A DNA stretch of 14,434 nt from Candidatus Cloacimonadota bacterium (GTDB lineage: Bacteria > Cloacimonadota > Cloacimonadia > Cloacimonadales > Cloacimonadaceae): NCBI GenBank assembly GCA_012519465.1, contig JAAYQD010000093.1, forward strand, positions 1 through 14,434, read 5' to 3'. Every line of letters begins with the position of its first letter. The first letter of the stretch is position 1. The translations under genes were made by a program, and so were the position numbers. Shown here one piece after another: positions 1-14,434 of this stretch. Under the pieces are notes generated by a model, which was not told where the DNA came from, searched no databases, and was given only the letters and a program-made list of their open reading frames with translations.

Positions 1-497
1 AAGAATTCCTCTTTTACAAACCTGCCCGCAGAGGATGACATCATAAAGATGCTCTTTGCCACGCTCTCGTCAAAGCGGTCGTTGCGATCCACATACATGG
101 TGCTGGTAAAGCCTGTCAGCGATACATCATAGGGCAGGGCATTATCCAAAGCCAGTTCGCGCACAAAGCTGCGCATTTGGTTTTCAGCGTCTTTGAGGCT
201 CACGGTGTCGTTGAAGACTTTGAAAGTATCAATCTCCACAGTTACCAGCATCCCAGCTTGAGAGGTGGTCTGGGAGGCTGGCATAGAGCCTACGGTCATA
301 TTTTGCTTTGGTAATGGCAACTCAACGGGGAGTGGTGTTGAATCATTATCCAAGCCAGCAAAGGCACTTTGGGCAGCACTGCGTACTGCATCTGGTTTGG
401 CATCGGTTGCGCCAGATGGAGCAAGATCTTTATTAACCCCGCACGCACCCAAGATAACAGTAATAATGATAAGTATATAACAATATTTTGCTTGCAT
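1..497 (-). CDS. Lipoprotein of unknown function, N-terminal part only
   Basis: The minus-strand frame is open from an ATG at 497 down to base 1, giving 165 complete codons without a stop; the C-terminus is outside the window. The first 18 residues are a signal peptide with a run of Ile/Leu/Val, ending in a lipobox Leu16-Gly-Ala-Cys19, so lipidation at Cys19 is likely. A stretch rich in Ala, Ser, Pro and Thr (about residues 25-80) looks like a flexible linker. From about residue 85 (VEIDTFKVFNDTVSLKDAE) it looks folded. An AAGGCGG ribosome binding site (505-511) lies 7 nt upstream, which supports this start. Gly at +2 after the Cys suggests no inner-membrane retention, but that rule is borrowed from E. 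coli. I do not recognise the family. It is transcribed divergently from proS across a repeat-rich spacer, so it is probably a separate transcription unit. Confidence 0.8.
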   Translation of the reverse strand, partial: MQAKYCYILIIITVILGACGVNKDLAPSGATDAKPDAVRSAAQSAFAGLDNDSTPLPVELPLPKQNMTVGSMPASQTTSQAGMLVTVEIDTFKVFNDTVSLKDAENQMRSFVRELALDNALPYDVSLTGFTSTMYVDRNDRFDESVAKSIFMMSSSAGRFVKEEF

Positions 498-549
498 TGT
501 AAAACCGCCTTGCAATGATCTGTACTTTAAGAAAAAAAACCATGAATTG

Positions 550-579
550 CAGATACCAGAAGAAACTTGTTTCTGTCAA
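550..579 (-). promoter_or_regulatory. Weak candidate promoter for the divergent lipoprotein
   Basis: On the minus strand a perfect TTGACA (574-579) is followed after 18 nt by TATCTG (550-555), a poor -10 match (3 of 6). Just inside the -35 lies an inverted repeat, AGAAAC-TT-GTTTCT (561-574), placed where a regulator could bind. The TTGACA and the inverted repeat are plain in the sequence; their use as promoter and operator is inferred. Confidence 0.25.
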
Positions 580-617
580 GCACTATCTCGTTTTTTTTGG
601 CATTCTGGGCACTCCTT

Positions 618-692
618 GCCCATTAGCCTCCCTTGTACCACCCTTGTCTCACCCTTGTCGAGACAAAGGAGAGACAAGGGTGGCTAATGGGC
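618..692. repeat. Long inverted repeat made of 11-bp units
   Basis: Outer arms GCCCATTAGCC (618-628) and GGCTAATGGGC (682-692) are perfectly complementary. Inside, CACCCTTGTCTC (639-650) pairs with GAGACAAGGGTG (671-682). The left side is a tandem 11-bp repeat with ACCCTTGTCTC-like units at 629-639, 640-650 and 651-661. The right side carries the same unit inverted at 660-670 and 671-681. A transcript of either strand could fold into a long hairpin with one 10-nt bulge. It lies between divergent genes, so it is not an obvious terminator. It may be a mobile-element remnant or a structured RNA; the sequence does not decide. Confidence 0.85.
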
Positions 693-703
693 GCGAAGCG
701 CCC
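689..703. repeat. GC-rich hairpin, GAA loop
   Basis: GGGCGC-gaa-GCGCCC is a perfect 6-bp stem with a 3-nt loop. It overlaps the end of the 11-bp-unit inverted repeat by 4 bp and is followed directly by a CAGGGAT/TAGGGGA purine linker. It has the form of the other short palindromes in this spacer: stem of 5-7 bp, loop of 3 nt. Confidence 0.75.
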
Positions 704-740
704 AGGGATTAGGGGACTGGGAGAGCTCGCTGTGCGAGCT
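703..740 (+). repeat. Purine linker plus AGCTCGC hairpin module, copy A
   Basis: Three heptads, CAGGGAT, TAGGGGA and CTGGGAG (703-723), lead into the hairpin AGCTCGC-tgt-GCGAGCT (724-740). The same arrangement occurs on the minus strand at 12077-12035, with linker CAGGGGT, CAGGGGA, CAGGGAA and hairpin GCTCGC-tgc-GCGAGC. Over the hairpin and its left flank (721-739 against 12053-12035) 17 of 19 bases agree, so the two copies are related. Confidence 0.75.
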
Positions 741-831
741 TAGAGCTTAGAGGTTAGAGGTCAGAGGCCAGAGGCCAGGGGCCAGAGACCAGAGACCAGA
801 AGCCAGAGGCCAGAGGCCAGAGGCCAGAGGC
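741..831 (+). repeat. Heptanucleotide tandem array, 13 units
   Basis: There are thirteen consecutive 7-bp units in unbroken register. In order: TAGAGCT, TAGAGGT twice, CAGAGGC twice, CAGGGGC, CAGAGAC twice, CAGAAGC, CAGAGGC four times. The consensus is CAGAGGC. Variants are grouped, with TAGAGNT units at the hairpin end and identical CAGAGGC units at the other, as expected of slippage or unequal-exchange expansion. The array starts immediately after the AGCTCGC hairpin. It resembles in style the short tandemly repeated (STRR) heptanucleotides known from filamentous cyanobacteria; that is an analogy, not homology. Confidence 0.9.
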
Positions 832-837
832 AGAGAC

Positions 838-875
838 CAGGGGGAGGCGGCTGCGCCGCAGGGGGACTGGGGAGG
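838..875 (+). repeat. G-rich palindrome module, copy A
   Basis: CAGGGGG (838-844), a GCGGC-tgc-GCCGC hairpin (847-859), a second CAGGGGG (859-865) and then ACTGGGGAGG. The two CAGGGGG copies are 21 bp, or three heptads, apart, so the 7-bp phase continues across the hairpin. The 23 bases at 842-864 match the reverse complement of 12073-12095 at 22 positions; the only difference is in the hairpin loop. Confidence 0.8.
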
Positions 876-1028
876 CGAGTTGCGGTCGACATATAATTGG
901 CGTGAGGTTTTCAAGTTAGTTGGCATCTCTTATCAATAAAATAACAGAATAATCAGCTTTATGGTTGACAAGCATTCAGCTTCAGAATCTTTGGTATCTT
1001 CAACTAATATCGCATTTATGGAGTATCG

Positions 1029-2552
1029 ATGAGTAAGAATAAACGCACAGCAATAGAGCCCACTCGCCAGGAAAACTATTCAGAGTGGTACCAACAGGTG
1101 ATCAAAGCTGCAGATTTGGCAGAAAATAGCGAAGTGAGAGGCTGCATGGTGATCAAGCCATGGGGCTATGCCATATGGGAAAACATCCAGCGCGTGTTGG
1201 ACAGGATGTTCCGGGAGACCGGGCATCGCAATGCCTACTTCCCCATCTTCATCCCCAAGAGCTATTTTGAAAAGGAAGCCGAGCACGTGGAAGGCTTTGC
1301 CAAGGAATGTGCCATTGTGACCCACAGCCGCTTGGAGCCGGATGATTCCGGTGGCCTGAAGGTGGCAGGCGAGCTCACCGAGCCCTATATTGTGCGTCCC
1401 ACCAGCGAGACCATCATCGGGGCGTCCTTTGCCAAGTGGGTGAATTCCTATCGGGATCTGCCTCTCTTGATCAATCAATGGGCAAATATCGTGCGTTGGG
1501 AAATGCGTACCCGTTTGTTTTTGAGAACGGCGGAATTCCTGTGGCAGGAATGGCACACCGTGCATGAGACCCAGGAAGAGGCAATGGAAGAAACCATGCA
1601 GATGTTACAGGTTTATGCCACCTTTGCACAGGATTATCTTGCCATCCCCGTGATCCAGGGTGAAAAGACGGAAGGGGAGAAATTCCCCGGTGCCGTGAAT
1701 ACATACAGCATCGAGGCAATGATGCAGGATAAGAAGGCGCTGCAGAGCGGCACCTCCCACTTTTTGGGGCAAAACTTTGCCAAGGCGTCGCAGATACGTT
1801 ATCAGAATAGGGATGGAGAATTTGACTATGCCTGGACCACCTCCTGGGGTGTTTCCACACGCCTCATCGGTGCCCTGATCATGGCACACAGCGATGATAA
1901 TGGATTTGTAATCCCCCCTATGATCGCCCCCGCCCATATCGCCATCATCCCCATCTATCGCGATGATGAGGAAAAGGAAGCGGTATTGAAAGTGGCAAAA
2001 GAGATTCAAAACAGCTTTAAGAAAACCATGCTGGAAGACGTGCCCGTTTATACGGAGCTGGACGATCGTGACCTCACCTCCAGCGAGCGCAATTGGTATT
2101 GGATCAAAAAAGGCATCCCCTTGCGCATAGAGATTGGTCCCCGTGATGTGGCATCCCAAAGCGTGATGTTAGCTCGCAGGGATAAAGAGCCCCGCGACAA
2201 GGTGAGCGTGCCCCTCACAGAGCTGAAAGAACAAGCCCTGGCAATGCTAAAGGATATGCAGGCTGGTATCTATGCCCGAGCCCTGGCTTTCAGAAATGAA
2301 AATACAATCAAGATAGACGATAATAAGGAATTTTACAAGTATTTCACACCCAAGAATGCAGAGCAGCCCGAAATCCACGGCGGCTTTGCCCTCTCCCACT
2401 GGTGTGGATGGATGGAGTGTGAAGAGCGCATCAAGGACGACCTCAAGGTGACTGTGCGCTGCATTCCCTTTGATCAACCCGAGGAGGATGGCGCGTGTAT
2501 CTCTTGCGGCAAACCATCCCAGCGCCGAGTAATCTTTGCCAAATCCTATTAA
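1029..2552 (+). CDS. proS: Prolyl-tRNA synthetase, archaeal/eukaryotic type
   Basis: Charges tRNA-Pro with proline in the cytoplasm; class II aminoacyl-tRNA synthetase of 507 residues. Visible are the TEPYIVRPTSETII segment, motif 2 around Arg156 (RWEMRTRLFLRTAEFLWQE), and motif 3 around Arg278 (TRLIGALIMAHSDDNG). An anticodon-binding region follows, then the C-terminal zinc-binding domain with Cys459, Cys464, Cys490 and Cys493. The protein ends in Tyr507, the usual last residue of this type. There is no editing-domain insertion between motifs 2 and 3. The C-terminal extension and terminal Tyr separate it from the long bacterial-type ProRS. A GGAG (1020-1023) 5 nt before the ATG supports the start. 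cinA begins 4 bp after the stop, so proS probably heads an operon. This ProRS type is found in a minority of bacterial lineages and is not odd in this group. Confidence 0.97.
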   Translation: MSKNKRTAIEPTRQENYSEWYQQVIKAADLAENSEVRGCMVIKPWGYAIWENIQRVLDRMFRETGHRNAYFPIFIPKSYFEKEAEHVEGFAKECAIVTHSRLEPDDSGGLKVAGELTEPYIVRPTSETIIGASFAKWVNSYRDLPLLINQWANIVRWEMRTRLFLRTAEFLWQEWHTVHETQEEAMEETMQMLQVYATFAQDYLAIPVIQGEKTEGEKFPGAVNTYSIEAMMQDKKALQSGTSHFLGQNFAKASQIRYQNRDGEFDYAWTTSWGVSTRLIGALIMAHSDDNGFVIPPMIAPAHIAIIPIYRDDEEKEAVLKVAKEIQNSFKKTMLEDVPVYTELDDRDLTSSERNWYWIKKGIPLRIEIGPRDVASQSVMLARRDKEPRDKVSVPLTELKEQALAMLKDMQAGIYARALAFRNENTIKIDDNKEFYKYFTPKNAEQPEIHGGFALSHWCGWMECEERIKDDLKVTVRCIPFDQPEEDGACISCGKPSQRRVIFAKSY

Positions 2553-2556
2553 GAAT

Positions 2557-3792
2557 ATGAGCCAGATCAAAAGCGCAGTTATCAGCATCGGGAATGAAAT
2601 CCTCCTGGGCAAGACGGTGAATACCAATCTTGCCTTCCTTGCCGATGGCTTGGCAGCCTTGGGGGCACCGGTGGTGTATAACGTGGTGGTGAATGATGAT
2701 GCGGATGATATCACCCGTGCTCTGGATTATTGCAGCAGCCGCTATGATATCGTGATTACCACCGGAGGCTTGGGACCCACCCATGATGACATCACCAAAG
2801 CCACCATTGCCAAGTACTTTGGCAAAGAGCTGGTCTTCCAGCCTGACTTGTGGGAATATGTGCAATCCCTATTTGCCAAACGCGGGGTGAAGGCACCCGA
2901 GATAAACCGCAATCAGGCGCTGGTGCCGCAGGATTTTAGCGTTTTGGAAAATGCAATGGGCACGGCTCCCGGCTTGTATTACCATCACAATGGGCTGAAT
3001 TACTTTGCCTGTGCCGGAGTTCCCATCGAGATGCGCTATGTGTTTGAAACACACATCACTGAAATTATAAAAAAGCAATTTCCCAAGCTGCACAGCCTCA
3101 CCCAGCATACCATTCACACCTTTGGCATTTCCGAATCCGCTTTGGCAGAAAGGCTGGATACATCAGCCTTGCCCAAGGGGGTGGAATTTGCCTGGCTGCC
3201 CCAAACGGGAAGGGTGGATCTGCGGCTGTATGGGATGGATCAAGAAGCCGTCTATCAGGGTGCGCAGGATATCATCCGGCAAATCCCCGGTTATGTGTGG
3301 GGGCTGGATGAAGACACTCCCGCCAAGGTGTTGGGCACGCTGCTTTCCCAACGGGGGCTGAGCATTTCCTTGGCAGAATCCTGCACTGGCGGCCTGGTGG
3401 CAAAGATGCTTTCCGACGAGCCCGGAGCGTCTGATTACCTTTTGGGCGGAGTAGTGAGCTATCATAATGATATAAAAAGCAGTGTCTTGGGCGTCTCTGA
3501 AGAGACTTTGGCAACTGATGGCGCCGTGAGTGAACAAACCGTGCGCCAGATGGTGTTGGGCGTAAAAGACTTGATGGATTCAGATTGTGCCATCTCGGTA
3601 TCCGGCATTGCCGGTCCCTCTGGAGGCAGCGCAGAGAAACCCGTGGGCACTGTGTGGTTTGGCTTTGCCTATCGGGATGAGGTGTGGGCTCAAAAATATA
3701 TTCTCACTGGTTCCAGGGAATCCATCCGGCACAAGGCGGCAGAAGTGGCTATCATCACCATGATAAAAAGGTTGATATCGGAAGACAGATGA
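2557..3792 (+). CDS. cinA: CinA-family nicotinamide-nucleotide amidase / damage-inducible protein
   Basis: 411 residues with the two standard CinA domains. The N-terminal MoaB/MogA-like domain begins SAVISIGNEILLGKTVNTN and carries TTGGLGPTHDD (residues 68-78) and a NAMGTAPG segment. The C-terminal CinA-C (PncC) domain carries AESCTGG (273-279) and SGIAGPSGG (349-357). In characterised relatives this domain deamidates nicotinamide mononucleotide for NAD salvage, and the N-terminal domain can act as an ADP-ribose pyrophosphatase. I chose the ATG at 2557 because it starts right at the family's usual N-terminus; an in-frame TTG at 2536 would overlap proS and add residues not seen in the family. 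There is no clear ribosome binding site, which suggests coupling to the proS stop 4 bp upstream. The stop overlaps the purD start (ATGA). Confidence 0.95.
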   Translation: MSQIKSAVISIGNEILLGKTVNTNLAFLADGLAALGAPVVYNVVVNDDADDITRALDYCSSRYDIVITTGGLGPTHDDITKATIAKYFGKELVFQPDLWEYVQSLFAKRGVKAPEINRNQALVPQDFSVLENAMGTAPGLYYHHNGLNYFACAGVPIEMRYVFETHITEIIKKQFPKLHSLTQHTIHTFGISESALAERLDTSALPKGVEFAWLPQTGRVDLRLYGMDQEAVYQGAQDIIRQIPGYVWGLDEDTPAKVLGTLLSQRGLSISLAESCTGGLVAKMLSDEPGASDYLLGGVVSYHNDIKSSVLGVSEETLATDGAVSEQTVRQMVLGVKDLMDSDCAISVSGIAGPSGGSAEKPVGTVWFGFAYRDEVWAQKYILTGSRESIRHKAAEVAIITMIKRLISEDR

Positions 3793-5039
3793 AGGTATTG
3801 GTGATAGGCAGCGGAGGCAGGGAACACGCAGTGGCAGAGGCTTTTGCACGCAGTGATGCTGTATCCAAAGTGAAGGTGGCACCGGGGAATGCCGGTATCG
3901 CCCGTTCTTTTGAGACCCTGCCCCTCAATAATATGGAGCAGCAGCTTCAGTGGTGCGAGAGCAATAGACCCGATCTGGTGTTTATAGGCCCCGAACAACC
4001 CCTGGAACAAGGCATGGCAGACAGGCTGAACCAAATGGGCATCCCCTGTGTGGGACCCTCCCGGGCTGCGGCACGCATCGAATCCAGCAAGATTTTTGCC
4101 AAGCGGCTGATGCAGAAATATAATGTGCCCACGGCGGCTTTCTTTCACAGCTATTCTTTGGATGAGGCTATGGACTATGTGGCAGATTCCTGCCCCTATC
4201 CAGCTGTAATCAAGGCAGATTATTTGGCAGCAGGCAAGGGGGTGATCATTGTTCAAAACCAAGCGGAAGCGGAAGATGCGCTTTTACAACTGTTGGCTAA
4301 TTCCTCAGAAAGTTCTCCCAAGGGAGTGGTGATAGAGGAGTTTTTACAAGGATGGGAAGTATCGCTTTTTGCCGTCACAGACGCAGTGGATTATGTAACC
4401 ACTCTTTTCTCGCAAGATCATAAACAACTGTTGGATGGAGACCGGGGACCCAACACAGGCGGAATGGGCGCATTTGCCCCCGTTTGGGAAGCGGAGCCCT
4501 GGCGCTCTCAGATTCATCAAGAGATCGTGGAGCCCATCCTGAAAGCCATGCGGGAGGAAGGATGCCCCTTTGCCGGTTTCCTGTATTGTGGGCTGATGAT
4601 TACCTCAGCAGGCGCCAAAGTGGTGGAATTCAATTGCCGCTTGGGCGATCCTGAGGCGCAGGCGCTGTTGCCTCTCTTGGATACAGATTTTTATGAGCTG
4701 TGTATTGCCATCACCCAAGACAGGGTTTGTTCGCTGAATCTGCAATGGAAAGACGAGACCTGTGTGGCGGTGATATTGGCATCTGACGGGTATCCTGGAA
4801 GCTATGAGAAAGGCATGCCCATCACCATCTCATCCCCTCTTTACAACCGTGTGTATTATGCAGGCGTAGCCCAAGAAGACGGCACCCTCATCACCAATGG
4901 CGGCAGAGTGTTGTGCGTATCCGCCCTTGGTAAAGACAGGGAAGCTGCCAGGCACGCCGCATATAACGATATAAACAAGATAAACTTTGCTAACAAACGC
5001 TTTCGCCGGGATATAGCCCAGCGGAACAATAAACTCTGA
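3789..5039 (+). CDS. purD: Phosphoribosylamine-glycine ligase (GAR synthetase)
   Basis: Catalyses the ATP-dependent joining of glycine to phosphoribosylamine, the second step of purine synthesis, in the cytoplasm. It has 416 residues, close to the usual 420-430. It opens with MKVLVIGSGGREHA, the family N-terminus. ATP-grasp motifs are in order: KADYLAAGKGV (142-152; most relatives have Gly rather than Tyr145), RGPNTGGMGAF from Arg219, and EFNCRLGDPEAQ from Glu280, which includes metal-binding residues. The start is set by homology: an upstream in-frame GTG at 3684 would add 35 residues translated from the cinA end in another frame. ATG and the cinA stop share ATGA, with GGAAG (3780-3784) upstream, so translation is coupled. 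The PorU-like gene begins 46 bp downstream with no obvious terminator between them. Confidence 0.97.
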   Translation: MKVLVIGSGGREHAVAEAFARSDAVSKVKVAPGNAGIARSFETLPLNNMEQQLQWCESNRPDLVFIGPEQPLEQGMADRLNQMGIPCVGPSRAAARIESSKIFAKRLMQKYNVPTAAFFHSYSLDEAMDYVADSCPYPAVIKADYLAAGKGVIIVQNQAEAEDALLQLLANSSESSPKGVVIEEFLQGWEVSLFAVTDAVDYVTTLFSQDHKQLLDGDRGPNTGGMGAFAPVWEAEPWRSQIHQEIVEPILKAMREEGCPFAGFLYCGLMITSAGAKVVEFNCRLGDPEAQALLPLLDTDFYELCIAITQDRVCSLNLQWKDETCVAVILASDGYPGSYEKGMPITISSPLYNRVYYAGVAQEDGTLITNGGRVLCVSALGKDREAARHAAYNDINKINFANKRFRRDIAQRNNKL

Positions 5040-5073
5040 CCCTCAAACCCCCTTTCGTATGGGAAGACAGTAT

Positions 5074-5078
5074 AGGAG
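5074..5078 (+). promoter_or_regulatory. Ribosome binding site that sets the PorU-like start
   Basis: AGGAG lies 7 nt before the ATG at 5086. The in-frame ATG at 5059 has no such site and would put nine polar and charged residues ahead of the Lys-Arg-hydrophobic signal peptide. The 5086 start is therefore preferred. Confidence 0.8.
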
Positions 5079-5085
5079 TATTTGC

Positions 5086-8000
5086 ATGAAGCGATATATT
5101 ATTGCATGGATGCTGCTTTTGTGGGCGGTCTGCGCCTGGAGCAGCGGTATCAGCCTCATCAGCGAAAGCATGGATGAGCTGATCGTGGAATTTGCTCTGC
5201 CGGATTACACTTTGGAGCATAGCCGTGATGGCAACGGCACTTGGCAGAAGATAGCATCGGATTATGGCGCAGTGGATGCCGAGGAAGGCCATCCCCTCCT
5301 GCGCACATACAGCGAAGCCATCGCCATTCCCGTGGATGGAGATATCTCTATCCAAATCCTGGATAGCCGCCACAGCTCCCTTAGGAATATCAATCTCTAC
5401 CCTGCTGCCCGCATGGTGTTGGATGATTGGGATGTGGATTATGAATTTTATCAGAATCCGCGCGTCTATAATAGCGACCAACTTTACCCGGCAGTGATAG
5501 TGGAAAAAGGCGAGCCTGCCTTTATCGGTAACCGCAGGTTTATCCCCCTGCATATCAGGCCCTTCCAATATCGAGCCCTCTCCCAGGAGCTGATCGTACA
5601 CAACTATATCCGCCTGCGTATCTCCATCTCTGGTGATAAGAATTCACCCAAAAACTGGCAGCTTGCCAAGAACCCTCTGGATGGTGCTGCGGATGCCTTT
5701 TTCCTCAATAATGCCACTTCCCAAAGCTGGAGACTGGAAAAGACACGTGACCACAGCTATGAGGCGCCTCAGTATCGGGGCAATATAGTTTCGCGCATCC
5801 AGCTTCTGGTGGATAAAGACGGCATCTACAGGGTGAATAAGGCTTTTTTGCAGGGCATCATCGATGCCGAGGTGGATACCTTGGGCGTCACCATGGCGTG
5901 GGATCTGAATACCCTGGATCCGCGCAGATTGGAGCTGTTGGATAAAAACGGTAACGTTCCCATCCATTTTGTGGGAGAAGAGGATGGCAGCTTTGATGAT
6001 GATGACTATTTTGAATTTTACGGACGCCGCAATCCCGGTAAAGAGGGCTACATGGATTCCTACACCCAGGAAAACGTATATACCCTGTATCTCAAAGACT
6101 CCCTGGGAGCACGGATGGCAGTGGAAAACGGCGGTTTGATTGAATCCAACACTGCCCGCTATATCGTGCCGGATGCCTATGAACATACGGAACACTTTGA
6201 ACAGCAACTGGTTTATGACAAGCTGGGGCACGGCTGGATTACGGATCAAAACTACTTCAAGGAGGATAACTGGTTTTGGCGCAGGATCAGCGCTCCAAAC
6301 CTGGATATTATCCCCATCCAACTGCAGTATCCCATAGATGCTACCACCCGCACAGCCAGCGCAAAGGTGGTGTTGCATGGACTTACCTATTCGGATTCCG
6401 TGCTGCCCGGTCAATGGGATCACGAGGCAAGCATTCGCCTGAACCAAGCCATGATCAATACCCACACCTGGACGGGGCAGACGGAACAGGTGTTTGAAAA
6501 CTCCCGGCCCATCCCCAATACCTTCCTCTATCATGGTACAAACAATGTGTATATCAGCCTTTCCGGCAATACCGTTATGGGCGATAAGGAGCAGGTGCTG
6601 CTGGATTATATAGACATCAAATACTGGCGTGAATACCGCACCAATAATGACTTGATCAAATTCACCAAGCCCTCCAACCGTCCCGGAGCTCTTTACCAAT
6701 TTGAAATAGGTGGCTTTAGCACGAATGACGTATCTGTGTATAAGATAGGCTCCAGCGTGTTTAACAATCTGCAAATCGAATCCTTTGATCCTGAAGGCAC
6801 AGGACCCTGGACTGTGACGATGCAGGATAGCGTGGCATCCACTGCCATCGAATATTATGCCTGCACACAAAAGCAAAAGATGCGCCCCATCATGGGAAGG
6901 CTGGATGTGCCCTCAGACCTCAAAAACCCAAACAATCAAGCCGATCTCGTGATCATCACCAGATGGGATATGATAGACTCTGAAGGCGGCATCCGCATCA
7001 AAGAACTGTATGAGACCAAAGGTTACAGCGTGATGATGGTGGATTATCAGGATATCTTTGATGAATTTAATCACGGTATCCGCCATGCTCAGCCCCTCAA
7101 GGATTTCCTGAAGTATGCCTACAATAACTGGGCAGAGCCCCAGCTGAGCCATGTGCTATTATTGGGAGAAGGGACGGACGATGAGCGTGACAACAGCCGT
7201 TCACGGGTTTACAATACAATTCCAGTGAAAAAGATATGGACCCACAAACACGGAGCCACTGCCAGTGACAACTGGTATGCCTGCATTGTGGGCGAAGACA
7301 CCCTGCCGGATATTGCCATCTCCAGGATCAATGTATGGAGGCCAGACCAGATCCTGCCGGTGGCGGAAAAGATGGAATCATACCATTACAATGCCCTTGC
7401 CAATAGGCTATGGAACAGCCATCTCACCTTCACCAGCGGAGGAAAGATCACCGATCCTGATGATATCTTTGCGCAGCAATCCGAAAAGATCAAGCGTCGT
7501 TGCATCCCCGAGGATTATCGGGTCACCAGGGTTTACACATCCACCCAGTCCACCAGTACAGATTACTTTGGCGGTACATTTGCCCTCAAAGACGCCATCA
7601 ATAGCGGCACCCAGTTTGTCCAATTCTTGGGGCACGGTGGAGGGCGCGTGTGGGCAGACTATAACCTCTTTAACTTCAATGACGTTGCCACCCTGAACAA
7701 CCAAACCTACCCCGTCTTCCTCAGCCTGGCATGTTATGCCTCTGCATTCGATACCAACGGAGCTGCCTCCATAAGTGAGGCATTGATCATGCAGCCCAAT
7801 AAAGGCGCCATAGCCACTTTGGGATTCAGCGGATTGGGATATCTGCACCAAGACGAGGATTGGGGGCTGGCGTTCAACGAAGCGGTGTATCAGCATGATT
7901 TTGACACACTTGGCATAGCCATGCAATATGCACTTGCAAGATTCTACAGTTTTACAAACAGTGTTATTGTCAGACAGGCTCTCACCGATGGCTACGCATT

Positions 8001-10095
8001 TCTGGGCGATGTTGCCCTCAAGATGAGCAAACCCCGCAATGAAGCCATCGTGAATATAGATCGCCACTACTATGACCAGGGCGATACCCTGTATGTGCAG
8101 GCAAACTTCCCTCCAGAGGTCACAGCAGCCCGTCTGTACATTATGAAAGATAACGAAAAGGTGATTAACGTACCTTACGATATCCCCGTGATAAACGGCA
8201 ATTTTAACGCCAACTATGTGATACCCACCAGTTCTGCCACTGGCTTCTCCCGTGGCATCTTTGTGGCTGGATATTCAAACGAACACGAGTACGTGGGACA
8301 ATCCTCCTTTGCCGTGGGCAGGCCAGCGGTATTCCATCACCTCCTGCAGCCTGCAGAGCCCACCTGGCAAGACTCCGTAAAATTTGTGGCAAAAGCATTT
8401 TCCCCCGCTCCCATCATATCCATGACCTGCAACCTCCAGCTGAATCCTGATGTCTCAAACAATCCCTGGATAAACATCCCCATGGAGCTTTTGGATGAGG
8501 ATTCCAATACTTGGATCACCTCCCACGCCCAAGCGCCCAGACCCACCGGAAGGGAGATCTTCTATCGCTATACAATCGTCACCACTGAAGGCAGCTTTGA
8601 ATCTGTGCGTAAAAGCCTGGTTTTTGCAGGACCAGAGCTTGCCTTGGAAGATATCAAGCTGGAGCGGATAGAAAATGAATTTGTAATCAAAGTATTGGTC
8701 TCAAACATAGGGAATGCAGCCTCCATCAATACCCCGCTCAGGCTGATGGTTCGCATAGACGGGGGCAGCAATCAAGTGTTTAGCACCCAGACCCTTGGCC
8801 CCCTGGATATCAATGAATCCAGATGGGAGACCATCCCCCTCACCGGTCTGGCATCTGGTAATATCCTGTTTCAAGTGGATGTAAACTACAACATGACCTT
8901 CTCAGAATGGCAGTACAACAATAGCATAAACAATACCATCACCCTCACTGTGCCTTTCAACTACCATCTTGTGGGTGTGGAAGGCATGGCAATCCCGTCT
9001 GTGGATAGCAACGTTCTTTGTGAGATCCCCGCCAATCTGGTGCCCACCGGCACAGAAGCCTTGTTCCACGTAAGCGAATTTGGCATTCTGGAAGCCAGCA
9101 ACCAGCCCGATATCCACCCCATTGCCCTGCGCTCCGTGGATAGTGGGCACACTCAGATGAGATCCACCGCTTATGAAATCAAGACTTTAAATAGCGCTCT
9201 GGTAGATTCTTCCGACGTCTTTGTGAGCGGTAAAATGATCAAGCTCCACTTCTTCTACAGCGAGGACGATGAAGCTGCCCAACAGTATGAAAATGAGAAT
9301 TCTTACAAGATTTACCGCTGGGATGCCCGCGGGTCAAAGTGGATATTGCAAGGCGGAAACATCTCCACCAGCGAAAACAAAGTGGTATTTGAGGTAAATC
9401 GCCAAGGCCTTTACACCATCTATCGCAATCGTGACCTCATCCGCCCCACCATCGATGTGAACGTGCAGGATCAGGAATTCACCGTGGGCGGCTATGTATC
9501 CGGCAGTGGAGTGATATCCCTGATGCTAAGCGATGCCAATGGGATAGACGTGTTTGACGATTCCATCAGGCTCTACCTCAATGGCACCGAGGTTCCAGAG
9601 GAAGACTATGTGACCGCCATCAATCTGGATAATATCAACCGCATCCCCATCAAATACCAGCTCAGCCTGCGCAAAGGGAATTACACCCTGGTGGTGGATT
9701 GCAGGGACGTAAACGGCAACTTCAACACCCGTGAGATTCAGTTTGTGGTAAATGAAACCTTCGATATCACCCGCATCGGAAACTATCCCAACCCCGTATT
9801 GGGAAGAGCCGAAGACCCCAAAAATGACGGACGCACCCGCTTTACCTATGTACTTACCGATGATGCAGACAACGTGACCATCAAAGTATACACGGTGGCT
9901 GGACGCCTGGTGAAAACCTTCGATTTTCTGCCCACCGGCGTTGGATACCACGAGTTTCCACGCACGCTTTATGGCTGGGATTGCACAGATGAACAGGGCT
10001 TCCCCCTTGCCAACGGCATGTACTTTTATAAGGTGATTGCCCGCAAGGGTAAAAAAACTATTGAAAAGACCATGAAAATGGCAATCTTAAAGTAG
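5086..10095 (+). CDS. porU: PorU-like C25 (gingipain-family) cysteine protein of a type IX secretion system
   Basis: 1669 residues. A signal peptide (MKRYIIAWMLLLWAVCAWSS) is followed by a long N-terminal region (about 20-617) with no family I can name. The C25 domain spans about 618-980, with candidate catalytic His850 in FLGHGGG and Cys883 in SLACYAS, 33 residues apart. Next come Ig-like segments, a CARDB-like domain (about 1185-1289), and a region (about 1453-1560) resembling the conserved domain near the end of Bacteroidota PorU (LSDANGIDVFDD). Last is a sorting-domain/FlgD-Ig-like domain starting NYPNPV (1566-1669). In Bacteroidota, PorU is the surface transpeptidase that removes the sorting domain of T9SS cargo and attaches the cargo to lipopolysaccharide. 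Adjacent porV, as in Porphyromonas, supports PorU over an ordinary gingipain. It is longer than the PorU proteins I recall, because of extra modules before the end. The catalytic assignment rests on motif reading only. Confidence 0.85.
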   Translation: MKRYIIAWMLLLWAVCAWSSGISLISESMDELIVEFALPDYTLEHSRDGNGTWQKIASDYGAVDAEEGHPLLRTYSEAIAIPVDGDISIQILDSRHSSLRNINLYPAARMVLDDWDVDYEFYQNPRVYNSDQLYPAVIVEKGEPAFIGNRRFIPLHIRPFQYRALSQELIVHNYIRLRISISGDKNSPKNWQLAKNPLDGAADAFFLNNATSQSWRLEKTRDHSYEAPQYRGNIVSRIQLLVDKDGIYRVNKAFLQGIIDAEVDTLGVTMAWDLNTLDPRRLELLDKNGNVPIHFVGEEDGSFDDDDYFEFYGRRNPGKEGYMDSYTQENVYTLYLKDSLGARMAVENGGLIESNTARYIVPDAYEHTEHFEQQLVYDKLGHGWITDQNYFKEDNWFWRRISAPNLDIIPIQLQYPIDATTRTASAKVVLHGLTYSDSVLPGQWDHEASIRLNQAMINTHTWTGQTEQVFENSRPIPNTFLYHGTNNVYISLSGNTVMGDKEQVLLDYIDIKYWREYRTNNDLIKFTKPSNRPGALYQFEIGGFSTNDVSVYKIGSSVFNNLQIESFDPEGTGPWTVTMQDSVASTAIEYYACTQKQKMRPIMGRLDVPSDLKNPNNQADLVIITRWDMIDSEGGIRIKELYETKGYSVMMVDYQDIFDEFNHGIRHAQPLKDFLKYAYNNWAEPQLSHVLLLGEGTDDERDNSRSRVYNTIPVKKIWTHKHGATASDNWYACIVGEDTLPDIAISRINVWRPDQILPVAEKMESYHYNALANRLWNSHLTFTSGGKITDPDDIFAQQSEKIKRRCIPEDYRVTRVYTSTQSTSTDYFGGTFALKDAINSGTQFVQFLGHGGGRVWADYNLFNFNDVATLNNQTYPVFLSLACYASAFDTNGAASISEALIMQPNKGAIATLGFSGLGYLHQDEDWGLAFNEAVYQHDFDTLGIAMQYALARFYSFTNSVIVRQALTDGYAFLGDVALKMSKPRNEAIVNIDRHYYDQGDTLYVQANFPPEVTAARLYIMKDNEKVINVPYDIPVINGNFNANYVIPTSSATGFSRGIFVAGYSNEHEYVGQSSFAVGRPAVFHHLLQPAEPTWQDSVKFVAKAFSPAPIISMTCNLQLNPDVSNNPWINIPMELLDEDSNTWITSHAQAPRPTGREIFYRYTIVTTEGSFESVRKSLVFAGPELALEDIKLERIENEFVIKVLVSNIGNAASINTPLRLMVRIDGGSNQVFSTQTLGPLDINESRWETIPLTGLASGNILFQVDVNYNMTFSEWQYNNSINNTITLTVPFNYHLVGVEGMAIPSVDSNVLCEIPANLVPTGTEALFHVSEFGILEASNQPDIHPIALRSVDSGHTQMRSTAYEIKTLNSALVDSSDVFVSGKMIKLHFFYSEDDEAAQQYENENSYKIYRWDARGSKWILQGGNISTSENKVVFEVNRQGLYTIYRNRDLIRPTIDVNVQDQEFTVGGYVSGSGVISLMLSDANGIDVFDDSIRLYLNGTEVPEEDYVTAINLDNINRIPIKYQLSLRKGNYTLVVDCRDVNGNFNTREIQFVVNETFDITRIGNYPNPVLGRAEDPKNDGRTRFTYVLTDDADNVTIKVYTVAGRLVKTFDFLPTGVGYHEFPRTLYGWDCTDEQGFPLANGMYFYKVIARKGKKTIEKTMKMAILK

Positions 10096-10103
10096 GAGAT
10101 AAG

Positions 10104-11114
10104 ATGAAAAAGATTATAATACTCTGCCTCCTAATTGCTGCCGCCCTCATTCCCCTGAATGCGGGGCGTTATGCCGGCGATTTTATGATGATTGGCTCCG
10201 GAGTGCGCGCTTTGGGTATGGGAGGAGCCTTCTCTGCCATCGCTGATGATGGCTCTGCCATCTACTGGAATGCTGCGGGCATCTCTGGGATCACAAAGAT
10301 GGAAGTGGCTGCCATGCATGCCTTCCTGTATTCTGGATTGGCTTCCTACGATAATATCAGCTATATCCAACCTCTACCCAATGGTGTCAGCATCGGGCTC
10401 AATCTCACCCGCCTCACCATCTCTGATATCCCCCATTTCAGCGAGTCTTACCTGGTGGGAACAAACGTAGACGAACGCATCAACAATAGCGATCTGCACC
10501 TCCCCGGCGTGCCTGATGCCAAATTCTCCAGCACAGACGATCTCTATCAATTTGCATTCAGCAAACACTTTAAATATGATGCAAATATGGGCTGGCTCTT
10601 CTTTGAAATCCCCTTTGATTTTTACATCGGCGGAAACGTGAAATTCATCAAACGTAAACTGTGGAACAACTATGGCACCGGCACGGGAATTGATCTTTCC
10701 CTCAAGACCACCACAGATTTATCGGTGTTGTTTGACATGGAGGAATTAGGCAAAATCGATTTTGGCATCAACCTCCAAGACATTGCCGGAACGGATATCA
10801 ACTGGGATACCATTAGTAAAATCAAAGATGAAGTATTGTTTAACACCAAAGTGGGCATAGCCGTACGCCAACCAATTCCTGCCCTCCATTCCCAGCTGAC
10901 ACTGGCGTATGATTATGATTATGTGTACAATGGCACAAACCATTTTGGAGTGGAATGGACCTACAAGGATGACGGCAGCATCCGAGCCGGTTATTACGAC
11001 ACAAATCTCAGCTTTGGAGCCACCGTCAAGGTCTATGATATCTATCTGGATTATGCCTTGGTAACCAATCCTGTTGGACTCACAAACCGCCTGGGCCTCA
11101 GGCTCAGATTCTAA
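10104..11114 (+). CDS. porV: PorV/PorQ-family outer-membrane beta-barrel protein
   Basis: 336 residues. The signal peptide ends at about Ala20 (AALIPLNA). The mature start shows the family hallmark: SGVRALGMGGAFSAIADDG, followed by AIYWNAAGIS. The rest alternates polar and aromatic residues as in a FadL-like barrel, and the protein ends in Phe336, typical of outer-membrane barrels. In Porphyromonas, PorV (LptO) shuttles T9SS cargo from the translocon to PorU. The gene starts 8 bp after the PorU-like stop; its AGGAG overlaps that stop codon (10094-10098), so the two are almost surely co-transcribed and probably coupled. The PorV/PorQ/UPF0164 superfamily has many paralogues, and the assignment as the true PorV partner comes from the gene pair rather than from sequence alone. 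Confidence 0.85.
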   Translation: MKKIIILCLLIAAALIPLNAGRYAGDFMMIGSGVRALGMGGAFSAIADDGSAIYWNAAGISGITKMEVAAMHAFLYSGLASYDNISYIQPLPNGVSIGLNLTRLTISDIPHFSESYLVGTNVDERINNSDLHLPGVPDAKFSSTDDLYQFAFSKHFKYDANMGWLFFEIPFDFYIGGNVKFIKRKLWNNYGTGTGIDLSLKTTTDLSVLFDMEELGKIDFGINLQDIAGTDINWDTISKIKDEVLFNTKVGIAVRQPIPALHSQLTLAYDYDYVYNGTNHFGVEWTYKDDGSIRAGYYDTNLSFGATVKVYDIYLDYALVTNPVGLTNRLGLRLRF

Positions 11115-11132
11115 GATATAAGGAGACGTATC

Positions 11133-11900
11133 ATGCAAAGAGCATTTTTATTGGCAAGTCTTCTGCTACTTTTGCTAATCATCTTTTCCTGTGCCGGAGA
11201 GGATAAGCTGGAAGAAGACACCACACCCCCCTTTCCACCCACGATGATACCTCATTTGGGCGATGTGGGAGACGAACCCACAGATTATTATGGACAATCT
11301 ACGCAAATCACTGATGACAACAATGGTATTGACACCATTCCCGAAGGCGATTGGATTCGAATCATGTGGAAGCCGTTTGTGGATGATGATGTGGCAATCG
11401 TTCGTATCTGGCGTTTTGATGACATCCAGCCCGAACCCGTCTTGATAGATTCCATCCTGCCCGTCACTCGGCAGCACCTTGATACAAGTAATGATCTTTC
11501 CGAGCGCAACTGGTATTCCTATTTTATCGAAGTGGCTGATGCAGCAGGGAATAGCGCTGTTTCAGACACCGTCTCCTTTGCGCTTTTGCCCAAACCTGTG
11601 CTCCTGTCCCCTGCCAGCTATGAAACCATACCTGTCGTGGGTGCCAGAGCATATTGGACAGACTATGGCTTTGCCACCAAATACCGCTTTCTGCTCTTTG
11701 ATTCCATGCACAATTATGTATGGCATCATGATCTGCTGGTGGCAATGGAAGATGACTTGTTTGTGGATATCCCCACCAATCTCTTGAGCGACCACTCTGG
11801 AGAATCCATGTATTGGAGGGTGGATGCCTTCGATTGGGATGAAGAACGCCAAGCATACATGGGAGGCAAATCCAACGAACGCATCTTGATTGTGCAATAA
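11133..11900 (+). CDS. Lipoprotein with two fibronectin-III-like segments
   Basis: 255 residues. The signal peptide is strongly hydrophobic with a lipobox Ile17-Phe-Ser-Cys20, so lipid attachment is expected at Cys20. The mature N-terminus is acidic, then has the Pro-rich DTTPPFPPT entry typical of FN3-like domains. The first domain (about 35-150) contains IRIMWKPFVDDDVAIVRIWR and ends YFIEVADAAGNSAVSDTV. The second (about 155-255) contains PVLLSPASYETIPV and YWRVDAFDWDEE. I know no function for it. It starts 18 bp after the PorV-like gene with AGGAG at 11121-11125 and is followed by a terminator-like hairpin, so it is the last gene of the porU-porV unit. That position makes a role at the outer membrane with PorU/PorV plausible but unproven. 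I do not recognise it as PorZ, PorQ or PorK/N. Confidence 0.85.
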   Translation: MQRAFLLASLLLLLLIIFSCAGEDKLEEDTTPPFPPTMIPHLGDVGDEPTDYYGQSTQITDDNNGIDTIPEGDWIRIMWKPFVDDDVAIVRIWRFDDIQPEPVLIDSILPVTRQHLDTSNDLSERNWYSYFIEVADAAGNSAVSDTVSFALLPKPVLLSPASYETIPVVGARAYWTDYGFATKYRFLLFDSMHNYVWHHDLLVAMEDDLFVDIPTNLLSDHSGESMYWRVDAFDWDEERQAYMGGKSNERILIVQ

Positions 11901-11914
11901 CCTTAATACTTTAT

Positions 11915-11960
11915 GAGAGCAGGTGGAGGCTGGTTTCCTTGCACCTGCTCTCGCTCTTTT
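11915..11960 (+). terminator. Rho-independent terminator-like hairpin
   Basis: GAGAGCAGGTG (11915-11925) pairs perfectly with CACCTGCTCTC (11942-11952) around a 16-nt loop, in which AGG/CCT can pair further. A short T-run follows (GCTCTTTTC, with TTTT at 11957-11960). It lies 14 bp past the lipoprotein stop, the right place to end the porU-porV-lipoprotein transcript. The T-run is short, so termination efficiency is uncertain. Confidence 0.65.
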
Positions 11961-12012
11961 CTGATAAATATAAACAGACAGCACTCTGAAACCTGCGCCA
12001 GCCACCAGCTGA

Positions 12013-12095
12013 CATTCATCATTCATTATTCATCGCTCGCGCAGCGAGCTCCCACTGTTCCCTGTCCCCTGACCCCTGCGGCGAAGCCGCCTCCC
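12013..12095 (-). repeat. Palindrome/heptad repeat module, copy B
   Basis: Read on the minus strand from 12095: a G-rich palindrome GCGGC-ttc-GCCGC (12090-12078) with flanks, heptads CAGGGGT, CAGGGGA, CAGGGAA and CAGTGGG (overlapping flank to 12051), a GCTCGC-tgc-GCGAGC hairpin (12049-12035), one base, then three heptads ATGAATA, ATGAATG, ATGAATG (12033-12013). The first 23 bases match 842-864 at 22 positions, and the second hairpin with flank matches 721-739 at 17 of 19. Copy A lies in the opposite orientation. Confidence 0.8.
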
Positions 12096-12144
12096 ATCAC
12101 TTTTAACCCTCTTTCTTTTGTATTCTTTTAGCCTTTTTGTTGGT

Positions 12145-12193
12145 TTGGGCTTCAAAGTTGCATACTATATAAGTATACCTCTTACATAAGAGG
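12145..12193 (+). promoter_or_regulatory. Candidate promoter with operator-like palindromes
   Basis: TTGGGC (12145-12150), 17 nt, then TATAAG (12168-12173) form a plausible sigma-70-like promoter with a weak -35. The -10 sits inside an inverted repeat ATACT-atata-AGTAT (12162-12176). Directly downstream, CCTCTTA-CA-TAAGAGG (12178-12193) is a perfect palindrome around 2 nt. Their position on and just after the -10 suits repressor binding, or a hairpin at the very start of the mRNA. The leader is A-rich and ends in AGGAG (12226-12230), 5 nt before the ATG. Confidence 0.4.
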
Positions 12194-12235
12194 AAAAGAG
12201 TAAATAATAAATAGATAACAAATATAGGAGAGGAA

Positions 12236-14434
12236 ATGAAAAAACAGTTCCTGCTGCTTGTCCTGATAAGCCTCTCAGCTTTATTGCTTGGCTCTCAGGG
12301 CAGCATCACCCTTACCCAAAGCCCCGGCTATATTCAGCTGCTCAGCGAAAGCCGCGAAGGCCTCAGTGTGGGCTACAAGATTGATAAACTAATTTATGAA
12401 GAGATCGACACCCCGGAAGGGAGATTTACCGATCTCAGCGTACCATATTATGCCACCACCAATCTGGAAGGACTGCCCAAGCTGCCTCTTTCCCGGCAGA
12501 TTATCGCAGTTCCAGAAGCCGCCAACGTGACGGTAAGCATGGTGAGTGCCAGCCGGGAGACCATCTCCCTTGCCACCCGTGGTGTGAATTATCCCATTAT
12601 GCCACGTCAGGCTCCAGTGCCCAAGTGTGACAATCCTGAGGACATGCCCTTCCTGATAGAGCGTGATTTTTATAACACATCACAATGGACCAGCTATCCT
12701 GAAATACGTGTGGAAGAGCTGGGACACATGCGCGGGATGCGTCTTTACGCCCTGGATTTCACTCCCCTGCAATACAACCCTGCCCTCAAACAGGTCACCA
12801 TCATCCGTGAAGCTGAGGTGAGGGTGGATTTTATCGGCGCCAACCATGCCGCCACCCAGGAGCTGAGGGATAAATATTACTCCCCCGCCTTCAATGGCGT
12901 TTTCCAAAGCACCCTGCTCAATCCCGTCTCCACCAGAGGTTCACTCAATCGCTATCCCATGGGTTATGTGATCATCACGCCGGCAAACTTTGTGGATGCC
13001 CTCCAGCCTTTTGTGGATTGGAAAAAGAAAGAAGGCTTCAACGTGATCTTGGCAACCACCAGCGAAACCGGCAGCACGGCATCTGCCATCAAGGGCTATC
13101 TGCAAAATATCTGGGATTCTGCCACCCCTGAAAACCCTGCCCCCAGCTATCTCATGATAGTGGGAGACGTGGCACAGGTGCCCTCCAATACCGGTGTTAC
13201 CAGCAGTGCCCATATCACAGACCTCACTTATGTGCGTCTGCAGGGCAATGACTATCTGCCGGAAATGTACTTCGGCCGCTTTTCTGCCACCACCCCCGCT
13301 GAGGTGACCAACCAGGTGAATAAGACCCTCATGCATGAAATGTACACTATGCCGGATGATTCATATCTTGCCAAATCCGTGCTCATCGCCGGAGTGGATA
13401 GCTATTGGTCTACCTCTCATGCCAATGGTGCCATCAATTATGCCACCACAAACTATTTCAATCCCTCCCACGGCATCGATAGCCAAACCTTCCTGTATCC
13501 CGCATCCGGCTCATCTGCCAGCCAGATTGTGCAAAGAGTTTCCGAAGGCGCCGGCTATGTAAACTACACCGCCCACGGCAGTGAAACCTCCTGGGCCGAT
13601 CCCTCCTTCACCATTTCCAACGTAAACAACCTGCAAAACACCAACAAATACCCCGTCGTGGTGGGTAACTGCTGCGTGACCAGCGCCTTTGATGTTGGCA
13701 TCTGCTTTGCCGAAGCCTGGCTGCGTGCCGTGGATAAAGGCGCTGTGGTGTATATCGGCGGTACCAATAACACCTATTGGGATGAAGACTATTGGTGGGC
13801 TGTGGGCTACAAACCGCCCATCCCTTCCAGCGGCTCAGGCTCTCCCTTTGTACCCGGACGCACCGGCAATTATGACGCCCTCTTCCATGAAAACGGCGAA
13901 CCTTTTGAAGATTGGTCAAACAGCGTTGCTGCCACCATCTTTATGGGCAATATGGCTGTGGTGCAATCCAACAGCACCCGTGCAAACTATTACTGGGAAG
14001 TGTATTCCGTGATGGGCGATCCCAGCCTTATCCCCTATTTGGGCATTCCCACAGATAATATCGCCGATTTGCCAGACACCATCTTCTTAGGCATGGATTC
14101 CATGGAATTAGTGGCTGATCCTTACAGCTATGTAGCTATCTCCATGAATGGCGTGTTGCACGGCACCGGCCTGGCAAGCCCCTCTGGAGAGCTCACCCTT
14201 TACTACACCCCCTTTGAAGAGCCGGGAATGGCTGATATTGTGATCACCCGTTCTTTGGTAAAGCCCACCATTGCCAGCATTCAGGTGGTTCCCAATGAAG
14301 GGCCCTACGTCACCGTGAGCCCTCTCACCATCACCGATCCCAATGGCAACGGCATGGCAGAGCCCGGAGAAATTATCTCCCTCAATCTCAGCCTCAACAA
14401 CGTCGGCGTGATGGATGCTAACAACCTCACCGCC
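12236..14434 (+). CDS. Lysine-gingipain-like C25 cysteine peptidase, C-terminus outside window
   Basis: The frame is open for 733 codons to the window end. A signal peptide (MKKQFLLLVLISLSALLLGSQ) is followed by a propeptide-like region to about residue 239, the C25 catalytic domain (about 240-600), an IgSF-like domain (about 605-685; YSYVAISMNGVLHGTG) and the start of another domain with DPNGNGMAEPGE. Candidate catalytic residues are Asp388 (AGVDSYW), His447 (YTAHGSET) and Cys480 (VGNCCVT). From memory of Porphyromonas Kgp (Asp388, His444, Cys477), spacing and local sequence agree closely, including the pocket residues Thr445 and Asp518 (DEDYYW) that in Kgp bind lysine. So a secreted protease, perhaps Lys-specific, is likely; a possible Arg processing site lies at Arg234 or Arg239. 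A T9SS sorting domain would be beyond the window. AGGAG (12226-12230) supports the start. Confidence 0.9.
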   Translation, partial: MKKQFLLLVLISLSALLLGSQGSITLTQSPGYIQLLSESREGLSVGYKIDKLIYEEIDTPEGRFTDLSVPYYATTNLEGLPKLPLSRQIIAVPEAANVTVSMVSASRETISLATRGVNYPIMPRQAPVPKCDNPEDMPFLIERDFYNTSQWTSYPEIRVEELGHMRGMRLYALDFTPLQYNPALKQVTIIREAEVRVDFIGANHAATQELRDKYYSPAFNGVFQSTLLNPVSTRGSLNRYPMGYVIITPANFVDALQPFVDWKKKEGFNVILATTSETGSTASAIKGYLQNIWDSATPENPAPSYLMIVGDVAQVPSNTGVTSSAHITDLTYVRLQGNDYLPEMYFGRFSATTPAEVTNQVNKTLMHEMYTMPDDSYLAKSVLIAGVDSYWSTSHANGAINYATTNYFNPSHGIDSQTFLYPASGSSASQIVQRVSEGAGYVNYTAHGSETSWADPSFTISNVNNLQNTNKYPVVVGNCCVTSAFDVGICFAEAWLRAVDKGAVVYIGGTNNTYWDEDYWWAVGYKPPIPSSGSGSPFVPGRTGNYDALFHENGEPFEDWSNSVAATIFMGNMAVVQSNSTRANYYWEVYSVMGDPSLIPYLGIPTDNIADLPDTIFLGMDSMELVADPYSYVAISMNGVLHGTGLASPSGELTLYYTPFEEPGMADIVITRSLVKPTIASIQVVPNEGPYVTVSPLTITDPNGNGMAEPGEIISLNLSLNNVGVMDANNLTA

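Follow-up and report, generated by a model that had tools for sequence, protein, structure and literature searches.

The window, i.e. the whole 14,434-nucleotide stretch of Candidatus Cloacimonadota DNA analysed here, carries a short GC-rich palindromic sequence in two separate spacers, which raises the question of what kind of repeat the sequence represents. The initial annotation suggested a genome-wide intergenic family, perhaps REP-like. As set out below, a hairpin that caps an array of 7-nt units (heptads) is a better description of the sequence than a lone REP.

Two spacers with a shared palindromic sequence

The 23-mer at positions 842-864 (GGGAGGCGGCTGCGCCGCAGGGG) and the reverse complement of positions 12073-12095 (GGGAGGCGGCTTCGCCGCAGGGG) agree at 22 of 23 bases, as the initial annotation had stated, and their sole difference lies in the 3-nt loop. 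A second hairpin was likewise confirmed to be shared (721-739 against the reverse complement of 12035-12053, 17 of 19 bases), and gene calls bear out that both loci are non-coding, placing them in the spacers 516-1028 (divergent genes) and 11901-12235 (co-directional genes). The first spacer (seven module calls, AAABBHC) contains, in order, an inverted-repeat element of approximately 80-100 nt at 605-705 (core ~610-692, arms 605-650 and 660-705), the palindrome TGGGCGC-GAA-GCGCCCA at 688-704, the second hairpin AGCTCGC-TGT-GCGAGCT at 724-740, a degenerate heptad array at 741-841 with minus-strand units of the CTCTGGC and CTCTAAC type and one 6-nt unit near its end, and the 23-mer, whose palindromic core (847-859) reads GCGGC-GCA-GCCGC on the minus strand. 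The degenerate array belongs to a direct-repeat family at 728-839 spaced by 14 nt (two heptads), and matches to the heptad pattern lie at 748-830.

The order in the second spacer, on the plus strand, begins with an array of ATTCATC and ATTCATT units at 12013-12034 (read off the sequence), followed by the second hairpin with a GNA loop, GCTCGC-GCA-GCGAGC, at 12035-12049, which has period 7 in its flank. A heptad array with the units CTGTTCC, CTGTCCC and CTGACCC and a final CT then occupies 12055-12077, and directly 3' of it stands the palindrome of the 23-mer, GCGGC-GAA-GCCGC (12078-12090), also with a GNA loop. At the 842 site, CT stands at just one of the three positions where it is expected ahead of the stem (AGTCCCCCT), and this site is a degenerate example of the heptad-hairpin junction. 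Elsewhere in the window, positions 5059-10095 encode a large protein with a Peptidase_C25 (gingipain-type) domain, a C25 propeptide and a C-terminal FlgD_ig domain, and the open frame at 12236-14434 reads as a second secreted protein.

Chance or base composition might be suspected because the 842 copy and many of the arrays are degenerate; however, this explanation is ruled out by spacer shuffles and reversed controls. Across 200 dinucleotide-preserving shuffles of both spacers, compared in either orientation, the best 23-mer match reached at most 18 bases (mean 16.0) as against the 22 observed, in agreement with the initial judgement that chance was unlikely, and the reversed control sequences gave 0-2 matches. 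A phage or plasmid origin was ruled out for window positions 600-880, for which blastn (E up to 1e-5) gave no match in the phage and plasmid collections.

Further genomic copies, which the initial annotation had anticipated, were found in the host draft (G000; 1,988,650 bases in 406 contigs, 89% complete). With up to 3 mismatches allowed, the 23-mer occurs in 8 places and its reversed control in none; 9 places are found when the TTC-loop form is the query. The 17-nt second hairpin AGCTCGCNNNGCGAGCT, matched by the copy at 724-740 with 0 mismatches, occurs in 40 places at up to 2 mismatches (reversed control 2). These copy numbers, from a draft that breaks at repeats, are below the more than 100 copies per genome that are usual for REPs (PMC2817692). 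A four-unit heptad pattern gave 57 overlapping matches in the host genome (reversed control 0). The 605-705 element is present in at least 40 host places including the window's own, the other 39 at 88-99% identity (40 of 92 candidates), and in at least 38 places of the sister species G004 at 89-99% identity (best 40 candidates); no copy is among the matches listed for G001, G002, G003 or G005. A generic scan for any palindrome of at least 6 bp with a GC-rich stem and a loop of 3-8 nt gave a small excess in the host at loop 3 (107 against 71 mirror repeats), so the families stand out by sequence and not by hairpin density.

Heptad arrays in register with a hairpin stem

The genus, one of uncultured Cloacimonadota, is represented by six genomes (G000-G005) within a phylum sample of 124 Cloacimonadota genomes, 118 of which lie outside it. 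G004 is 97% identical to the host over window positions 4137-12825 and 94.4% on average over 116 kb of sampled alignments; the other congeners, G001, G002, G003 and G005, match the window mostly at 67-74% identity in DNA. A pattern scan of the phylum sample for the strict junction CTN5-CTN5-CT-GCGGC-NNN-GCCGC gave 52 matches in five of the six genus genomes (G000 2, G001 0, G002 17, G003 23, G004 2, G005 8), none in the other 118, and none in all 124 for the reversed control. Within the phylum sample, the junction is therefore restricted to the genus. The 52 junctions are not independent, as some are tandem copies and one G004 match is the ortholog of the window's, so that there were fewer events than the counts suggest. 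The two strict junctions of the host are the 12-kb site of the window and one more. Among GCGGC-NNN-GCCGC palindromes as such, three CT positions precede the stem in two, two in five and one in a single case (the 842 site) of the eight sampled from the host; the four in G004 include two with three, one with two and one with a single CT position.

The last heptad beside this constant palindrome ends in CC in G000 and G004 (4/4), in AA in G002 and G005 (25/25), and in AC in 21 of the 23 junctions of G003, the other two ending in TA. Since the endings differ by species beside one palindrome, the hairpin has been kept and the heptad is species-specific. A 23-mer query free of heptad sequence retrieved nine palindromes in G003 and one in G002, and all ten are preceded by a heptad array, of CTAACAC units in G003 and of CTGACAA or CTCACAA units in G002. 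Periodicity was also measured around 102 intergenic palindromes sampled from G000 and G004: period 7 occurs in 50 of their 204 flanks, whereas every other period in the range 3-12 occurs in 0-2. Of the flanks with period 7, 33 are pyrimidine-rich, and in these CT lies 0-4 nt before the stem in 44 counts and never 5-6 nt before it. Heptad arrays thus stop in register with the hairpin stem.

The reading that we tentatively put forward is that the 23-mer may be the capping hairpin of a composite intergenic repeat of this genus, in which (CTNNNNN)n is followed directly by a GC-rich perfect palindrome with a GNA triloop on the CT strand, usually with other modules and more hairpins nearby, and which would act as single-stranded DNA. 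Hairpins and heptads could also have arisen and spread with no dedicated enzyme, by replication slippage, template switching and gene conversion, an explanation that we consider possible and rather unlikely. The heptads, which vary by species next to a hairpin that stays constant, resemble the outcome of concerted evolution, the orthologous arrays of G000 and G004 differ by one gain or loss of a 7-nt unit beside the hairpin, and different spacers sampled from the host have blocks of 40-300 nt in common, in 672 matching pairs of at least 85% identity. The failure to find an enzyme in the host or in G005, described below, also fits this explanation. However, slippage and recombination alone explain neither the placement of copies between unrelated genes nor the different modules of species that are approximately 94% identical (10 spacers inspected). 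A slippage signature was also sought in the likeness of neighbouring units and proved weak, adjacent units being hardly more alike than distant ones (similarity of 0.73, 0.72, 0.68 and 0.63 at distances 1-4).

Modules are partly or wholly different between conserved flanks in the 10 spacers inspected in G000 and G004, and other aligned stretches pass through spacers with no gap; the sampling of G000, mainly of stretches with hits, does not allow a rate of module change to be stated. With regard to MITEs, which have terminal inverted repeats, a target-site duplication and a cognate transposase, the 605-705 element has inverted arms, and empty sites with clear duplications were not found in the 10 inspected spacers. 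The 12-kb spacer is identical to that of G004 at 354 of 360 positions and is therefore inherited there. Against window positions 1-4136, only repeats are among the G004 matches listed (best 40 of 212 candidates). By its proS gene the window belongs to Cloacimonadota: its best matches among named genomes are Cloacimonadota MAGs, the closest with 84% identity in protein. The aligned named relatives do not align in the proS spacer, which holds the 842 copy, so there is no empty site for that copy.

Several repeat modules can be combined in one spacer, as in BIME-like mosaics; of the 39 spacers with modules in the host sample, 29 have at least two. Among the best 40 pairs, module J precedes G on the same strand eight times and G precedes I nine times, against three in reverse; the remaining pairs are of mixed order. 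At L252:3018-3121, L169:12214-12318 and other places in the host, different small hairpins are separated by GTTGAG (or CTCAAC), e.g. GTTGAGCGTGCTTCGCACT, at a spacing near 19-23 nt.

The GNA loop and the search for a mobilising enzyme

Of the 52 strict junctions, 50 have a GNA loop on the CT strand, while the remaining two have ATA and ACA and none has TNC; in those 50 the triloop is closed by G-C pairs as in d(GCGNAGC). GNA loops closed in this way are extraordinarily stable DNA mini-hairpins, GCGAAGC having a Tm of 78 C (PMC4686876). Most capping hairpins have this loop with the same closing pairs, GC-GNA-GC; the published mini-hairpins are known as oligonucleotide structures, whereas here we infer their formation in the cell. 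More widely, hairpins beside arrays in G000 and G004 have GNA loops in 30 cases, TNC in 5, others in 33 and an ambiguous one in 1. C-GNA-G triloops make up 105 of 333 intergenic palindromes against 21 of 1075 coding ones, 48 of the 105 being of the CGGAG type found in the GTCTC-GGA-GAGAC family, and when distinct stems closed by C-G are counted the excess is modest (13 of 42 intergenic against 15 of 102 coding). In spacers of host contigs chosen for hits, the GCGNAGC motif is strongly enriched (23.9 against 5.1 per 10 kb). The enrichment is mild in a set of 31 contigs picked by number from G004 (8.2 against 4.3) and absent from 22 unselected host contigs (2 in 7.0 kb of spacer, 2.9 against 2.2); because it is strong only in hit-selected contigs, this enrichment is not used as proof.

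The energies given by a DNA folding model, with the CT strand first, are -5.7/-5.9, -5.7/-5.9, -7.6/-7.7 and -6.4/-6.8 kcal/mol. The model gives the CT strand no advantage and slightly favours the other strand; with energies so nearly equal, a strand preference would be read from sequence and not from energy.

The hairpins might instead function in RNA, as terminators, mRNA-stabilising hairpins or binding sites of a post-transcriptional regulator. They are GC-rich, and the TAACTGA heptads of Beggiatoaceae have been proposed to bind a translational regulator (PMC4679880). However, no terminator-like site was found at the 842 site or the 12-kb site, and the window has no Rfam match at gathering thresholds. 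Module-bearing spacers of the host sample are also distributed with no downstream preference (divergent 10/32, co-directional 19/61, convergent 10/24), and the corresponding fractions in G004 are 14/50, 29/118 and 13/45. Because there are no terminator-like sites and there is no bias for gene ends, a role in RNA is less likely, and we consider it very improbable.

The initial annotation had proposed a search for a REP-associated tyrosine transposase (RAYT) or similar enzyme. None was found in the host draft, where the Pfam Y1_Tnp profile (PF01797), the NCBIfam REP_Tyr_transpos profile (NF047646) and the Y1 protein of G004 all gave 0 matches; the draft is incomplete and fragmented, and so a Y1 gene may have been lost in assembly. 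In G005, a 99%-complete genome with 8 junctions, no Y1 match was found either. RAYT-like genes do exist in the genus, with NF047646 scores of 70.2 bits in G002 (one gene) and of 71.2 and 63.2 bits in G003 (two genes), and the 80-bit cut-off of this profile is reached in none of 11 genomes. The single Y1 gene of G004 is of the IS200 type by profile (NF033573 70.9 bits, cut-off 55; NF047646 23.2 bits). This gene (L146:1396-1857, contig C77) sits between inverted runs of the GTCTC-GGA-GAGAC hairpin, and GTCTC-NNN-GAGAC at up to 1 mismatch occurs 27 times in G000, 57 times in G004, twice in G018 and not at all in the other 33 of 36 genomes.

The classical explanation, in which the palindromes are REPs mobilised by a RAYT that has been lost from the draft or is unassembled in it, gains from the surroundings of these genes. 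Repeated hairpins surround the RAYT-like genes, and a heptad array capped by GCGACGGAGTCGC lies approximately 50 nt before the first ATG of the G002 frame (L357). Those TnpAREP enzymes that have been characterised cut at a CT dinucleotide adjoining their REP, and for one of them the substrate is a perfect palindrome of 8 bp whose loop has 3 nt (PMC8266576); the arrays described here carry CT every 7 nt. This correspondence between CT-initial heptads and cutting at CT may be taken as a lead, not as a test. However, the subthreshold RAYT scores, the failure to find an enzyme in the host and in G005, and the IS200 type of the sister species gene all count against a RAYT origin. The repeated hairpins on both sides of the two G003 genes (L355, L356) are mainly other hairpins, and the stems carry no GTAG or CGTC tag: their flanks show CT on one strand and GGAG, TGAG, AGTG, GGGG and others on the other. 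A RAYT-based origin in its classical form is therefore unlikely. At the G003 loci, several hairpins read off the sequence begin with GTAC or GTAT (GTACGGGCGGTCGCTGAACCGCC, GTATGGTCGCTTGCCATAGCGACC), resembling the GTAG tag.

Relation to known repeats and a proposed mechanism

The comparison with REPs, BIMEs and REPINs leaves the REP-like assignment partly standing. Like these, the repeats are dispersed, short, intergenic, small-loop palindromes, are lineage-restricted, form mosaics with other repeats and differ between close species. They differ in that the GTAG or CGTC tag is missing, no RAYT was found in the host, the 23-mer has few copies and heptad arrays constantly accompany the hairpins. 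The CGTC/GTAG-tagged REPs of Di Nocera et al. are also palindromic families of many phyla, some of which have no dedicated transposase (PMC3733652). Their defining 4-nt tag is absent here, and the stems here are 5-7 bp with 3-nt loops as against 8-9 bp and 4-5 nt in the CGTC REPs (PMC3733652).

Tandem 7-nt arrays in intergenic DNA are the hallmark of heptamer STRRs, and the STRRs of cyanobacteria are intergenic heptamer repeats. Such heptamers include TAACTGA in Beggiatoaceae, Cyanobacteria and Bacteroidetes (PMC4679880) and GGGAATC and GGGGA(C/T)T in Xanthomonas and Nostoc (PMC4692102), and inverted pairs of heptamer arrays were described by Rehm et al. Arrays from cyanobacteria, xanthomonads, Beggiatoaceae and Bacteroidetes are reported with no mechanism (PMC4679880, PMC4692102). 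The repeats described here share with them the intergenic tandem 7-nt units, the species-specific sequence and the patchy distribution. In contrast, the array here is capped in register by a GC-rich palindrome, and the portions consulted of those two reports describe no such cap. By rotation, TAACTGA may be written CTGATAA and GGGGACT may be written CTGGGGA, which on our reading would make both CT-initial.

Interspersed palindromes and heptamer arrays are each known; no description of their fixed combination in register, the heptad-hairpin junction, was found in searches of the open-access PMC literature. We read the heptad-hairpin repeat as a new genus-restricted variant of interspersed mosaic elements, one that perhaps acts as a single-stranded DNA hairpin. 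The element would be non-autonomous DNA: its hairpin would stall or re-prime the strand being copied, such that units are gained and lost beside it in 7-nt steps. Recombination, or a single-strand nuclease (HUH/Y1-type) acting in trans, either today or formerly, would copy whole blocks from one spacer into another. The blocks shared between spacers and the 7-nt unit difference between orthologous arrays speak for this reading. Against it count the scarcity of strict junctions in the host, the degenerate 842 site, the modest GNA excess by distinct stems, the folding energies, the weak likeness of neighbouring units, the heptad arrays of other genera that lack these hairpins and the failure to find a mobilising enzyme in the host. 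To our knowledge, there is no evidence that the host benefits from the element.

A more specific version of this mechanism, which must be regarded as improbable, is that a single-strand endonuclease (Y1/HUH, possibly RAYT-like) is guided by the GNA mini-hairpin to cut at CT, and that the CT-initial heptads would be footprints of repeated cutting and rejoining, or of re-priming, at a fixed distance. If true, this would trace the 7-nt repeats of several phyla, so far unexplained, to one cause. The array here has a fixed partner, a constant hairpin in register that is kept in the genus while the heptad changes between species, and so it offers a defined substrate (the CT-heptad strand with the GNA hairpin) and a defined test of how such arrays originate.

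Heptad arrays that lack these hairpins are present in other genera of the family (L134, L135). In a named congener (L054), a CTCAATT/TTGAGAA heptad array lies upstream of proS, in both orientations around a run of N that is likely an assembly gap. It is another CT-initial heptad in the same (proS) spacer of a congener.
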